Positions 10,572 through 15,275 of a stretch of DNA of 35,364 bases are shown piece after piece. Numbering within the stretch: position 1 is the stretch's first letter; every line of letters starts with the position of its first letter. This stretch comes from Deltaproteobacteria bacterium (GTDB lineage: Bacteria > Desulfobacterota > GWC2-55-46 > JAJCZF01), in NCBI GenBank assembly GCA_029262475.1, contig JAJCZG010000048.1, forward strand, positions 1-35,364, read 5' to 3'. A program made the translations under genes and the position numbers. The notes under the pieces were generated by a model. It was not told the origin of the DNA, searched no databases, and saw only the letters and a list, made by a program, of their open reading frames with translations.

Positions 10572-11171
10572 TCAGAGCAAAGCCTGGTCGGGTGCATTTT
10601 CGGCCATGTACTTCTTGTACTTCCTCTTTAGCATGTCGCGCTTTACCCAGCTTACCCTGTCTATGATGAGCACGCCGTCCAGGTGGTCTAACTCGTGCTG
10701 CAAGAGCACGGCCTGGAAGCCGAACGCGTCGATCTCTACAGGGTTAAAATCACGGTCAAGGGCTTTGACCTTCACATGGTCGGCCCTCTTTATATCGGCG
10801 GTGATGCCGGGGAAGCTAAGGCAGCCCTCGCCGTAGATAATCTCACCCTCCGAAAAGGTTATTTCAGGATTTATAAGGACGATCATCCTCTTCCTTCTAT
10901 CCGCACCCTTCCATTCGCCGCCACCGGTCTCGGTCCCGGAGCCGGATGCGGAATCATCGTCTTCGTCGTCATACCTGTACAGGTCCGTTATTATAACCCT
11001 CCTGGGCACACCGACCTGATTAGCGGCGAGACCGACGCTCTTATCATCATCCATGACCGTATCGAGCATATCGCCTATAAGGGTACTGACTTCGGCGTCC
11101 ATCTTCTCGACCGGCACACTCTTCTCCTTTAGCACCGGAGCCGGGTATGTAACAATCTCACGTACAGCCAT
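10572..11171 (-). CDS. def: Peptide deformylase with acidic insertion
   Basis: This metalloenzyme removes the formyl group from nascent chains. Motif 2 EGCLSFPG (Cys117) and motif 3 QHELDHLDG (His159, Glu160, His163) provide the metal ligands and catalytic glutamate. Motif 1 reads SVGLAANQVGVP (about 45-56), where the usual first Gly of GxGxAAxQ is Ser45. At 199 residues it is longer than the common 165-190. The extra length is an acidic, Gly/Ser-rich insertion at about residues 68-95 between the motif 1 strand and the next strand; this is probably a surface loop. GAGAGG lies 6 bases before the ATG. It is the first gene of def-fmt-DUF116-ubiU. Confidence 0.95.
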   Translation of the reverse strand: MAVREIVTYPAPVLKEKSVPVEKMDAEVSTLIGDMLDTVMDDDKSVGLAANQVGVPRRVIITDLYRYDDEDDDSASGSGTETGGGEWKGADRRKRMIVLINPEITFSEGEIIYGEGCLSFPGITADIKRADHVKVKALDRDFNPVEIDAFGFQAVLLQHELDHLDGVLIIDRVSWVKRDMLKRKYKKYMAENAPDQALL

Positions 11172-11383: not shown

Positions 11384-11412
11384 TTGCTATAGCGGAAAAA
11401 TTCATTCATAAT
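11384..11412 (+). promoter_or_regulatory. Promoter-like element overlapping the first GCTATAGC palindrome
   Basis: TTGCTA (11384-11389), a 17-base spacer and CATAAT (11407-11412) resemble a sigma70 promoter with a 4/6 -35 and a 5/6 -10. The palindrome GCTATAGC at 11386-11393 overlaps the -35. This one is weaker than the promoter at 11460. Confidence 0.3.
11386..11393. repeat. GCTATAGC palindrome, copy 1
   Basis: Perfect 8-bp palindrome, followed after six bases by ATTCATT. It is one of three copies within 196 bases and overlaps a possible -35 element. Confidence 0.6.
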
Positions 11413-11459
11413 TCAGAGATTCTTAACCCTCTGCTATTAATGACTGGGCTAACTTCCCC

Positions 11460-11488
11460 TTGACATGCTATAGCTTTTCCTGTATTAT
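11460..11488 (+). promoter_or_regulatory. Strong sigma70-type promoter with palindrome in its spacer
   Basis: A consensus -35 TTGACA (11460-11465), exactly 17 bases of spacer and -10 TATTAT (11483-11488) are seen. The palindromic octamer GCTATAGC (11467-11474) sits inside the spacer, a typical place for a repressor operator or for an activator that remodels the spacer. Transcription would start near 11495 and run rightward towards the terminator at 11784-11825. Confidence 0.55.
11467..11474. repeat. GCTATAGC palindrome, copy 2
   Basis: Perfect 8-bp palindrome in the spacer of the TTGACA-N17-TATTAT promoter. Confidence 0.6.
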
Positions 11489-11540
11489 AAATCTATTGGT
11501 TGGAAATAGAAGCTCTTAACTCTTGATTTTATTGGGGTTA

Positions 11541-11657
11541 ATGATTTTAACTGAATTAACCATATTAATGAACGCTATAGCATTCATTGGTGACATAGTG
11601 AGCCAACATGTATCGAAAGGGCTCGCTTTAATACATCGGGAAGCCGTCTCATACTAA
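11541..11657 (+). CDS. Candidate 38-residue small protein
   Basis: The ORF opens with ATG five bases after a GGGG tract and lies about 50 bases downstream of the strong promoter at 11460-11488, and it ends before the terminator at 11784. The predicted peptide is hydrophobic in its first half (MILTELTILMNAIAFIG) and more polar and basic in its second half. I do not recognise it. The ORF is short enough to occur by chance, the ribosome site is poor, and the third palindrome lies inside it, so it could equally be a non-coding leader or a remnant. Confidence 0.2.
   Translation: MILTELTILMNAIAFIGDIVSQHVSKGLALIHREAVSY
11567..11588. repeat. GCTATAGC palindrome, copy 3, within a 22-bp dyad
   Basis: The octamer at 11574-11581 is the centre of a 22-bp inverted repeat: AATGAA, C, GCTATAGC, A, TTCATT. 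Only one base pair (C opposite A) breaks the symmetry, so the full dyad could be the complete binding site of a dimeric regulator. Confidence 0.6.
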
Positions 11658-11783
11658 GCCGGAACCAAGTAAAGATGGCGCAAGGAAAAGTTTCATGACG
11701 GGACACCTTGCCACGGACGCCTGAAATAATATCTTCTAATTTCTCGTGAATTCAAGACGGATTCACAGATATCTGGTGATGAC

Positions 11784-11825
11784 GCCGCAATTTCGCTTTC
11801 TACTTGCGATCTCTGCGGCTTTTTT
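11784..11825 (+). terminator. Intrinsic terminator upstream of the GGDEF gene
   Basis: The outer stem GCCGCA/TGCGGC and inner stem TCGC/GCGA are stacked, followed directly by six T residues. It ends 61 bases before the start codon of the diguanylate cyclase. It could end a separate short transcript started near 11495, or act as an attenuator in a long cyclase leader. Confidence 0.6.
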
Positions 11826-11886
11826 ATACCGGGGCCGTGGCGTGTTAAAAACTGGAATAAGTATAAGAAGGAACCGACTTTAAGGT

Positions 11887-12798
11887 ATGAATAAAGTATT
11901 GAACATAGAGAGAGAACGCGTTCTCGTAGTAGACGATAAACTCCAGCACCGGGAACTCCTGAAAGCCCTCCTCGATAAGGAAGGCTACGACGTAACCGCC
12001 GTTTCGGACGGTGAGGAAGCGCTCATAAAGATCGGGTCGGTCGTTCCGGACCTCATACTGCTCGATCTAAAGATGCCCGGTATCGACGGCTTCGAGGTCT
12101 GTCGGCGACTTAAAAGCCAGGATGAAACGCGCGACACTCCAGTCATACTGCTAACGTGCACCACGGAGACGGAGAGTGTAACAAGGGGCTTTGACGCGGG
12201 CGCTGCCGACTACGTCACGAAACCGTGCGATAACAAAGTACTGCTGGCGAGGATAAGAGCTCATCTGGCGCTCTTTACAAAGACCAAGAGGCTGATGTTA
12301 TTCGCAGAGAGAGACGCCCTTACGAACCTTGCCAACAGGAGGCGCTTCGACGAATTTCTGGAGCTTGAATGGAGACGAGCTAAACGCGGCCAAACCCTTA
12401 TCGCCATGCTGCTCCTCGATATAGACTATTTCAAAGCATATAACGACACCTACGGACATCTCGAAGGCGACAGGGTCTTACAAGATGTCGCAAAAGAGAT
12501 CAAGAATACCTGCAACAGGCCCGGAGACCTTTATGCGCGTTACGGAGGTGAGGAGTTCGCCGTCATCTTCGGTAACATCACCAAAGGCGCGGCGGAGATA
12601 ATCGCGGAAAGGCTAAGGCGGAAGATCGAGGCCTTGAGGATTCCTCACAAGGCCTCCAGTATATCGGATGTGCTGACTGTAAGCATCGGCGTATCTTCGA
12701 TAGTGCCTTCAAAGGAAGACCCGCCTACAAACCTCATTTCACTTGCCGATAAACACCTCTATGAAGCGAAGAACGGTGGCCGAAACCGCGTAATCTAG
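11887..12798 (+). CDS. Response regulator diguanylate cyclase (REC-GGDEF, PleD-like)
   Basis: The 303-residue cytosolic protein has an N-terminal receiver domain (about 10-130) with acidic pocket Asp16/Asp17, phosphoacceptor Asp60 in LILLDLKMPG and Lys112 in the TKP motif. A GGDEF domain (about 140-303) carries the active-site GGEEF at 220-224, so it should make c-di-GMP from two GTP. The allosteric inhibitory site RxxD is present (Arg211 to Asp214, five residues before GGEEF), predicting product feedback. There is no adjacent histidine kinase, so it is an orphan regulator. The Shine-Dalgarno is poor: GAAGGA is 13 bases and AAGG only one or two bases from the ATG. Its last codon overlaps the end of convergent priA. 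Outputs may include the type IV pilus (pilT at 31952), but that link is speculation. Confidence 0.93.
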   Translation: MNKVLNIERERVLVVDDKLQHRELLKALLDKEGYDVTAVSDGEEALIKIGSVVPDLILLDLKMPGIDGFEVCRRLKSQDETRDTPVILLTCTTETESVTRGFDAGAADYVTKPCDNKVLLARIRAHLALFTKTKRLMLFAERDALTNLANRRRFDEFLELEWRRAKRGQTLIAMLLLDIDYFKAYNDTYGHLEGDRVLQDVAKEIKNTCNRPGDLYARYGGEEFAVIFGNITKGAAEIIAERLRRKIEALRIPHKASSISDVLTVSIGVSSIVPSKEDPPTNLISLADKHLYEAKNGGRNRVI

Positions 12799-15275
12799 AC
12801 CGTTATAAGCGGGTCGATATCTATCGAGACATTAACCCCTTTCTTGCCTTTGCTATCAAAACGCCCCTTTAAATCCCTGATAAACCCGTTCAGCACCACG
12901 GCGCTCCCGGCCTTTATGAGGAGCTGCCACCTGTGCCTGCCCTTAAGCCTCCCTATGAGCGCAGGAACCGGGCCCAGCACCCTCACCCCGGTAAAGTTGC
13001 TGTTTCTCGTAAGGGTATCCGATATCCGCTTAAGCTCCATTGCGCCCGAGGAAACTGCGGCCTCCAAAGGGCCGTCTATCCTTATTACGGAGAGCTTTGA
13101 AAAAGGCGGATACCATACGGCCTCTCGCTCAAGTATCTCTTCGGCATAGAAGGCGTCGTAGTCGTGTTTCAGTGCCGCAGTGAAGCAGAAATGATCGGGG
13201 TTAACGGTCTGGATTATAACCTTGGCTGGGAGGGCTCCGCGCCCGGCGCGCCCGGAGGCCTGAGCTATCAACTGAAATGTCCGCTCCGCCCCCCTGAAGT
13301 CCGGGATATTTAGAGAAGTATCCCCCGAGATGACACCGACAAGCGTAATGCCCGGAAAGTCATGCCCCTTTGAGACCATCTGAGTTCCTATAAGGAAATC
13401 CACCTCGCCAGAGTCCATCGCCCGTAGTATCTTCTTCGCCTCGCCCCTCTTCCTCGTCGTATCCCTATCGAGGCGGGCAATATTAGCCTCTGGAAAGAGG
13501 GTTTTAATCTCTTCTTCCACCTTCTCGGTGCCGATGCCCGGGCTCTCCAGGTTAACGCCCTTACATACCGGGCAGGTATCCGGGACCGTGATGGAGTAGT
13601 CGCAGTAATGGCACCTTAAGAGCCCCGGCCCCTTGTGGAGCGTAAGCGTAACCGAGCAGTTTACGCACTCGGGGGCCGCTCCGCAGTCCTTACAGATTAC
13701 AAAATTTGAAAAGCCCCGGCGGTTAAGGAATATTAAGGCCTGCTCTTTCCTTAGAAGGGTCTCCCCAAGGAGTGAGACGAGCCTCTCGGAGAGGGAACCG
13801 CCCCCGCTCTCGTCCTCGCCCTTCTTAACCCCTTTCATGTCCACCAGCTCGACCGGCGGCATCTCGCGCTCCATAACGCGCTTTGTGAGTGTTAGAAGCT
13901 TTAGCTTCCCTTGCGTTTGGTTATAAAAGCTCTCGACCGAGGGTGTCGCCGAGGCGAGCATCACCGTAATGCCGAGGGTTTTAGCAAGGATTAAGGCCGC
14001 GTCCTTTGCATTGTACTTTACCCCCTCTTCCTGCTTATAGCTGGTGTCGTGCTCCTCGTCCACTATTATAAGGCCGAGATCCTTAAGCGGCGAAAATAAT
14101 GCGCTCCTCGTCCCTATTACTATATCTGCCTCGCCGCCGTATATGCGTCGCCACTGGAAGTAGCGCTCGGACTCGGTTAAGCCGCTGTGTATGATAGCCA
14201 CCCTGCCCGGAAAGGCCTCCGTAAGGTACTCCGAAGCAACGGGAGTAAGCGCAATCTCGGGGACGAGGACAATCGCACGCTTACCGAGACTAACCGCCTC
14301 TTCTATGCATTTAAGGTATACAAGGGTCTTGCCGCTCCCGGTTACGCCGTACAGGAGAAAGGGTTTATAGCCTCCCTCATTTAGAGCACTACTCACGGCC
14401 CGGGTAGCCTTAGCCTGCTCCGGGGTCGGTGTATGGTGCGCCGCGCTCCTGGCCGGAGCGCCCGAGAGGGCGTCCAGTACGCGCTCTCGACGTTCTTCGG
14501 TAACAAAACCTTTTTCGATCAAACCCTTTAGCGGAGCTGGCGTTACGCCAATACTGGCGAACAACTCCTCTACCTTAAGCGGCGGCGGGGAGGTATCAGT
14601 CTCGTCGGCTATCTTCACAAGGTAGCGAAGTATCTCCGCCTGCTTCGGTGAGCCCTTTAACGAAGATATGGTCTCCTCCCAATCAATACCGTCTTTTAGG
14701 GAAATGAACCTCTCCATACGCCTCCCACCGGCCCCTGAGAGAGAATCTTCTTCCACTAAAAGGCCATCGCCTACGAGCTTTTTTACGGCTGAGCCGACAG
14801 AAAAACCCTTGAGACGTTTTGAAAGAAGCGAGAGCGTTACCCCTCCGGCGGCGGCGAGTATGATATCTCTTTCAACACCGGAGAGGGCCGTTCTTGCGAA
14901 CTCCTCACCAGAAGATGTCGGGCGGATAAGTTTTTTGCTCTTTATATTAATTGAAGACGGATGAGAAAGGGAGAGGACTTCACCGAGTGGGGCAAAGTAG
15001 TATGAGGCGATAAGCTTAAAACATTTAAGGCGCGCTTCGTCGAATAACGGCGCGTCGTCCAAGACCTCTATTACGGATTTAACTCTGGTAAGCTCGGTAC
15101 CGGCCTTAACGCCGACGACATACCCTGTGACCTTGCGCCTGCCGAAGGGGACGAGCACGCGGCGGCCAAAGAGCTCGTCTGGCGCTACCTCACCCTTTAG
15201 CGAATACGTAAAGAGACCATCAACAGGTAGGTCCACCGTAACGTCTAAAAAGACTTTCTTTTCTTCCTTTGGCAT
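12795..15275 (-). CDS. priA: Primosomal protein N' (replication restart helicase PriA)
   Basis: This 3'-to-5' helicase recognises stalled or repaired forks and reloads the replicative helicase. The 826-residue product has an N-terminal 3'-DNA-binding domain, Walker A GVTGSGKT at 310-317, the DEEH box at 406-409, and a paired zinc-binding region with CKDCG, CVNC, CHYC and CPVC that is diagnostic of PriA. Conserved GTQMVSKGHDFP and SGRAGRG helicase motifs follow. It is slightly longer than the E. coli protein (about 730). It lies downstream of dnaB on the same strand with a 188-base gap that shows no clear terminator. Its TAG stop shares the tetranucleotide CTAG with the stop of the convergent GGDEF gene. 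Confidence 0.97.
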   Translation of the reverse strand: MPKEEKKVFLDVTVDLPVDGLFTYSLKGEVAPDELFGRRVLVPFGRRKVTGYVVGVKAGTELTRVKSVIEVLDDAPLFDEARLKCFKLIASYYFAPLGEVLSLSHPSSINIKSKKLIRPTSSGEEFARTALSGVERDIILAAAGGVTLSLLSKRLKGFSVGSAVKKLVGDGLLVEEDSLSGAGGRRMERFISLKDGIDWEETISSLKGSPKQAEILRYLVKIADETDTSPPPLKVEELFASIGVTPAPLKGLIEKGFVTEERRERVLDALSGAPARSAAHHTPTPEQAKATRAVSSALNEGGYKPFLLYGVTGSGKTLVYLKCIEEAVSLGKRAIVLVPEIALTPVASEYLTEAFPGRVAIIHSGLTESERYFQWRRIYGGEADIVIGTRSALFSPLKDLGLIIVDEEHDTSYKQEEGVKYNAKDAALILAKTLGITVMLASATPSVESFYNQTQGKLKLLTLTKRVMEREMPPVELVDMKGVKKGEDESGGGSLSERLVSLLGETLLRKEQALIFLNRRGFSNFVICKDCGAAPECVNCSVTLTLHKGPGLLRCHYCDYSITVPDTCPVCKGVNLESPGIGTEKVEEEIKTLFPEANIARLDRDTTRKRGEAKKILRAMDSGEVDFLIGTQMVSKGHDFPGITLVGVISGDTSLNIPDFRGAERTFQLIAQASGRAGRGALPAKVIIQTVNPDHFCFTAALKHDYDAFYAEEILEREAVWYPPFSKLSVIRIDGPLEAAVSSGAMELKRISDTLTRNSNFTGVRVLGPVPALIGRLKGRHRWQLLIKAGSAVVLNGFIRDLKGRFDSKGKKGVNVSIDIDPLITV

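Follow-up and report, generated by a model that had tools for sequence, protein, structure and literature searches.

A promoter palindrome and a conserved leader RNA suggest two-layer control of an inserted diguanylate cyclase gene in a deltaproteobacterium

Background

A described relative of the promoter arrangement considered here is the SavRS system of Staphylococcus aureus, in which the SavR operator TACGCTATAGCGTA is located between the -35 and -10 elements (PMC5913840). Our locus shares with it a palindrome with a GCTATAGC core in that position; however, the SavRS palindrome is longer, serves toxin-antitoxin autoregulation and belongs to an unrelated organism and unrelated genes. Dimeric regulators of the NarL/FixJ type, which act on short palindromes, are a further point of comparison, since a gene for such a regulator and one for a HisKA_3 kinase lie beside another octamer site of the same genome (C33:6701); being drawn from gene proximity, this likeness is a lead only.

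On the RNA side, Geobacter cGAMP riboswitches tie GGDEF signalling to extracellular electron transfer (PMC6456294, PMC8835794). The cGAMP and c-di-GMP riboswitches (GEMM-I, RF01051), which control genes for this process in Geobacter, are likewise cis RNAs before cytochrome and other genes in a GGDEF-rich bacterium, but the RNA found here has a two-hairpin core and a loop of its own, and lacks an Rfam match even at permissive thresholds. In attenuators with competing anti-terminator and terminator, among them many riboswitches and protein-sensing leaders, one segment has two alternative partners, one upstream and one in the terminator. The 3' arm of the second hairpin of our RNA, P2, has the same double role in nearly all copies, although its sequence family is not described in Rfam 15. 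We consider it probable that the cyclase gene at this locus is under two-layer control, by a regulator that would bind the promoter octamers and by an attenuator RNA.

Results and discussion

The inserted cyclase gene and its surroundings

The window, that is, the whole stretch of 35,364 nucleotides that was analysed, contains an orphan diguanylate cyclase gene with a long leader between def and priA (Table 1). Many related genomes carry priA, def, fmt and a DUF116 gene in a single orientation, and their priA ends about 60-150 bp before def; in the present genome 1.6 kb, made up of the leader and the REC-GGDEF gene, is inserted between priA and def on the opposite strand. A close relative of the cyclase was not found in the genome collection, where the best match is 53% identical and lies in another gene context. 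GGEEF motif, RxxD I-site and receiver aspartate are all retained in the product, and the cyclase is therefore probably active. GGDEF domains are strongly expanded in this 2.4-Mb genome (60 candidate matches, 39 of them scored).

Table 1. Coordinates of the features discussed, as positions in the window
Feature	Position	Strand	Remarks
def (peptide deformylase), divergent neighbour	10572..11171	-	
Weak promoter-like site TTGCTA-N17-CATAAT, octamer copy 1 over -35	11384..11412	+	9/12 consensus; may be non-functional
Main promoter TTGACA-T-GCTATAGC-N8-TATTAT	11460..11488	+	copy 2 starts 1 bp past -35
Predicted leader RNA, about 330 nt, ends in intrinsic terminator	11495..11825	+	folding z -2.8
22-bp dyad AATGAACGCTATAGCATTCATT with octamer copy 3	11567..11588	.	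~+80 of predicted transcript; operator or RNA hairpin
P1 hairpin, conserved loop UUCAAGACGGA at 11751-11761	11741..11769	+	R2/R3 covariance models
P2 hairpin UGGUG-AUGA-CGCCG, proposed anti-terminator	11774..11788	+	
Intrinsic terminator GCCGCA ... UGCGGC then UUUUUU	11784..11825	+	5' arm overlaps P2 3' arm
REC-GGDEF diguanylate cyclase, orphan	11887..12798	+	GGEEF, RxxD I-site, receiver Asp; 60 bp past terminator
priA, convergent neighbour	12795..15275	-	

Promoters and dyad upstream of the cyclase

The octamer GCTATAGC occurs three times (11386-11393, 11467-11474 and 11574-11581), and these are its sole occurrences within the window. A sequence-only reading of this DNA had assigned each copy to a regulatory element, and the assignments hold: copy 1 covers the -35 of a weak promoter-like site, copy 2 falls in the spacer of a promoter with 11 of 12 consensus matches, and copy 3 is centred in a dyad with one mismatched pair. 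Transcription from the main promoter is predicted to start near 11495. That reading did not notice the 330-nt leader, with an intrinsic terminator and a conserved attenuator RNA, between the promoter and the cyclase. The heptamer ATTCATT was correctly seen at copies 1 and 3 (at 11400 and 11582), but it is out of register with the octamer, being offset by 6 nt from copy 1 and directly adjoining copy 3, where it forms an arm of the dyad.

Copy 3 had also been proposed as an operator; it lies inside the transcribed leader, however, where its dyad might just as well form a hairpin in the RNA. It is quite possible, although we lean slightly the other way, that this dyad serves as a leader RNA hairpin or RNA-processing site and that only copies 1 and 2 are sites on DNA. 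The dyad lies about 80 nt into the predicted transcript, its stem is present in the minimum-energy structure, and the leader C33a has an analogous ATTATAGC-ATTT-GCTATGAG hairpin, while a hairpin has no need of an octamer palindrome identical to the two promoter copies. Such a role for copy 3 is compatible with two-layer control.

Statistics and distribution of the octamer

The clustering of the three copies exceeds chance, as the sequence-only reading had argued. Shuffled windows contain 0.74 GCTATAGC on average, and at least three anywhere in 35 kb were met in 3 of 100 shuffles; not one of 60 shuffled windows, and not one of 2000 shuffled versions of the 715-bp intergenic region, had a triplet of any palindromic octamer inside 200 bp. 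For GCTATAGC, the expected number of triplets spanning no more than 196 bp is about 0.0002 per genome. Non-palindromic octamer triplets are frequent, with nine entries in the window, two of which are the GCTATAGC repeat itself. One point needs correcting: the octamer has a genome-wide rate of 1 per 63 kb, equal to the chance rate. The octamer as such is thus not enriched and its frequency alone is no proof; at background frequency, the decisive question is where it is located, not how often it occurs.

Genome-wide statistics were obtained from pattern searches and the stretches around their matches, and sites were called intergenic or coding with a simple codon-usage gene finder, four GC-rich sites being assigned to coding sequence by eye. 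There are 38 GCTATAGC sites in the genome (35 outside the window), about 26 of them in coding sequence and 12 exact copies between genes. Between genes the octamer is in modest excess, with p from about 0.004 to 0.13 according to which intergenic fraction is assumed and whether the cluster is counted once.

The promoter positions are more specific. A second perfect promoter, TTGACACGCTATAGCACCTATACTATAAT at G000:C33:15253 (TTGACA-N-GCTATAGC-N8-TATAAT), carries the octamer at the identical offset in a 17-bp spacer, so that the exact octamer stands 1 bp past TTGACA in two promoters (window 11460 and C33:15253); 0.003 other promoters with the exact octamer at that offset are expected among 171 promoter-like sites. 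The genome-wide search also gave the spacer variants GCTATAAC at C33:9762 (with TATACT) and GCTATAAT at C13:28936 (with TATAAT). These four promoters all lead into leaders of 200-400 nt that end in one conserved RNA, and the genes behind them are two diguanylate cyclases and two surface proteins. A further promoter, at C35:8935, has the spacer variant ATTATAGC and a full octamer 21 bp upstream. Both there and at C33:9762 a second copy or variant lies 21 bp upstream of the one in the spacer (GCTATA..-N6-TTGACA-N-octamer), a distance of two helical turns that cooperative dimers would prefer.

Exact octamers are also found directly at the -35 of a GAF-GGDEF gene (C19), ahead of the -10 of a GGDEF gene (C31) and immediately past the -10 of a lipoprotein-like gene (C90). 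GGDEF genes are found at 3 of 10 intergenic octamer loci (p about 0.002, and 0.02 with the window left out), which is suggestive since such genes are numerous in this genome. Exact copies in the promoter regions of two further GGDEF genes and of surface or pilus genes are of the kind that the sequence-only reading had named as support for an operator; the palindrome thus recurs at promoters of functionally related genes, in its own genome only. Allowing two mismatches, the pattern TTGACANGCTATAGC had 12 matches in this genome and its control 31. Another octamer pair, at C145, was rejected as promoter sites because the double falls inside nuoF.

One surface/pilus locus (L183, G000:C33:4544-17168) contains three octamer-type sites and two attenuator RNAs, together with genes for the HisKA_3 kinase, the NarL/FixJ-type regulator, a PilX-like protein and two paralogous SdrD_B proteins. 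Past the terminators of both surface-protein leaders it has a common ACTGAAAGGAGGTAGG-like sequence (L183:10070-10304 and L183:15740-15995), possibly a second regulatory element.

Conservation of the octamer was examined in relatives of the order and class, the cyclase itself being a lineage-specific insertion. No octamer was found near def or the cyclase in the relatives' loci that were fetched, where the one copy seen (L161) is unrelated, and in a class-wide search TTGACANGCTATAGC with one mismatch was not commoner than the reversed control. Literature searches for the octamer yielded two matches, namely the SavRS operator and a cre site of artificial design. The proposal of operators for a dimeric regulator therefore stands in part: the octamer recurs at promoter positions, but most copies are genic and none lies near def or the cyclase in the relatives' loci that were fetched.

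The same facts can be turned against the octamers altogether, which would then be coincidental background copies in one AT-rich intergenic region, with only the promoter and the leader RNA functional. The background frequency and the missing conservation in relatives agree with this, as does the resemblance of the GCTATAAT variants to an extended -10 (TGnTATAAT), owing to which some near-matches may be mere promoter parts. We nevertheless regard coincidence as unlikely, because the triplet is absent from all shuffles, an exact copy has the same offset in a second perfect promoter, and the spacer copies go with the RNA family in four of four cases. Operators of a dimeric DNA-binding protein, the first layer of the proposed control, are the likely reading of these sequence patterns.

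A conserved RNA at the end of the leader

The leaders of the octamer promoters formed two strongly similar pairs that merged into one RNA family, apart from which they are largely dissimilar. The conserved RNA spans 11741-11825 in the window. Its P1 hairpin has the loop consensus UUCAnGRYGGR, P2 has the consensus GURGYG-AAGR-CGCYRC, and the terminator that comes next uses the 3' arm of P2; a simple scan missed this terminator because of its internal loop. A script found the P2 3' arm paired with the bases leading up to the U-run in 14 of the 17 copies. For C62a and C91a it had settled on a U-run that comes earlier, and inspection by eye shows the proper GGCGC/GCGCU stem in both; the upstream C91 copy is without a terminator. 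Mutually exclusive anti-terminator and terminator helices followed by a U-run are therefore found in most of the family (14/17 by script).

Covariation is also strong. In 16 aligned copies, 83% of cells are paired, vs 69% when shuffled and 38-49% when slid, and there are 48 double changes, vs 20 after shuffling and no more than 16 after sliding; these counts somewhat favour the model, since it was re-fitted on its own hits and the alignment was fitted to it. A MAFFT alignment of the first five copies, made without the model, gave 81% paired vs 71.5% shuffled and 32-51% slid. A structured domain with covariation is thus conserved upstream of related genes, and these comparisons make a conserved transcription attenuator, the second layer, a well-supported interpretation of the leader.

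At 11691-11703 the sequence UUUCAUGACGGGA resembles the P1 loop and could be a second, degenerate copy in the same leader; as a loop motif it scores 6.5 bits, too weak to call. A role as CsrA/RsmA sponge was set aside, because GGA motifs are not enriched (by eye) and the P1 loop has GGR rather than a conserved GGA.

Distribution and target genes of the RNA family

Of the covariance models, R1 (P1 plus terminator) found three copies only, and R2 (P1 plus P2, built from the five first copies) found the family; E-values of the RNA models are rough. R2 added two copies on C62, the upstream C91 copy and, weakly, one on C119, plus two families of the same order, one of them strongly. About nine copies are present in the own genome, and more in relatives of the same order. 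A plain DNA search for leader homologues in 63 genomes of the class found none, and the relatives' copies came from the covariance model alone. There were no RNA-model matches in 411 kb of other fetched loci, and none of 33 pattern-matched stretches of viral contigs (313 kb) scored with R3.

Rfam 15 gave no family for the leader RNA, only sub-threshold chance matches. Chlorobi-RRM, the candidate for the C33a leader, was rejected (E 0.25, 18 bits vs a cut-off of 45, mainly from the terminator hairpin). The c-di-GMP-I riboswitch (RF01051) had no match in the window at the gathering threshold or at E<=10; three true members occur elsewhere in the genome (G000:C56:4624-4707 and G000:C2:1039-1123 and 2763-2850). 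The C56 riboswitch is preceded by an exact octamer, and its promoter shows half sites that resemble the octamer (GCTATAAG-N6-TTGACT).

In the own genome the RNA precedes genes for REC-GGDEF (window) and GAF-GGDEF proteins (C13, C119), for two SdrD_B-like surface proteins (C33, near the kinase, NarL/FixJ-type regulator and PilX-like genes) and for multihaem cytochromes (C62 twice, C91). Targets in relatives are mostly multihaem cytochromes with doubled CXXCH motifs, and in one case an FTR1 iron permease. The relatives have their promoter about 43 nt before P1 and the RNA start about 7 nt before it, which makes P1 essentially the 5' end of the message; the octamer promoters of the own genome lie 208-382 nt upstream of P1. 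The copies at cytochromes and in relatives have promoters without the octamer, showing that the two layers are separable. Over the -35 of the C91 RNA promoter lies a perfect 12-bp inverted repeat, ACGTATTTTGTC-CTT-GACAAAATACGT (L169:1968-1996, G000:C91, minus strand), presumably an operator for a different regulator.

The strong terminator, and the 60 nt between it and the start codon, might suggest instead that the transcript is an independent small RNA, complete at this terminator, with a separate cyclase promoter after 11826. This seems improbable, given that the copies stand a short distance before the same kinds of gene at many loci, that in relatives the cytochrome gene begins soon after the terminator, that cis attenuators typically show such overlap between the arms of anti-terminator and terminator, and that a promoter scan of 11826-11886 gave no good promoter. 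Autoregulation of the SavR type shares the core palindrome and promoter position, but is very improbable here, where the sites have def, priA and the cyclase rather than a toxin-antitoxin pair as neighbours and lack the TAC/GTA flanks.

Proposed two-layer control

Under two-layer control, a dimeric DNA-binding protein would recognise GCTATAGC and set the output of the 11460 promoter. With one site between -35 and -10 and outer sites at 11386 and 11574, the arrangement would fit repression as the sign of this regulation, by blocking RNA polymerase; we infer both binding and sign from the arrangement of the octamers, which, like the promoter, can be read directly in the DNA. The RNA family, its mutually exclusive helices and its shared targets are likewise apparent at sequence level, and suggest that the nascent leader folds either into P2, allowing read-through, or into the terminator, bringing a stop. 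In this inferred direction of the switch, a small molecule or protein that acts on P1/P2 would decide whether transcription ends at about 11825 or runs on into the cyclase. By analogy with the Geobacter cGAMP riboswitches, a cyclic dinucleotide is a natural candidate effector, with haem, iron or a protein equally open.

Conclusions

The attenuator RNA has apparently not been described before. As a tentative proposal, which we put forward with reserve, P1/P2 may be a riboswitch of a new class. It could respond to a cyclic dinucleotide, or to haem, iron or redox state, and would allow a little-studied bacterial order to coordinate its diguanylate cyclases with its surface adhesins and multihaem cytochromes; in the own genome, a subset of the copies would have come under a second, octamer-binding regulator. 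The promoter palindrome offers a ready bait for the transcription factor of the same network. The RNA is compact (about 50 nt), its loop is highly conserved and it has a terminator switch of its own; it is common to genes of signalling, adhesion and electron transfer. Should a small molecule prove to be its signal, the RNA would form a new riboswitch class and show how these bacteria link second-messenger synthesis with surface and redox functions.
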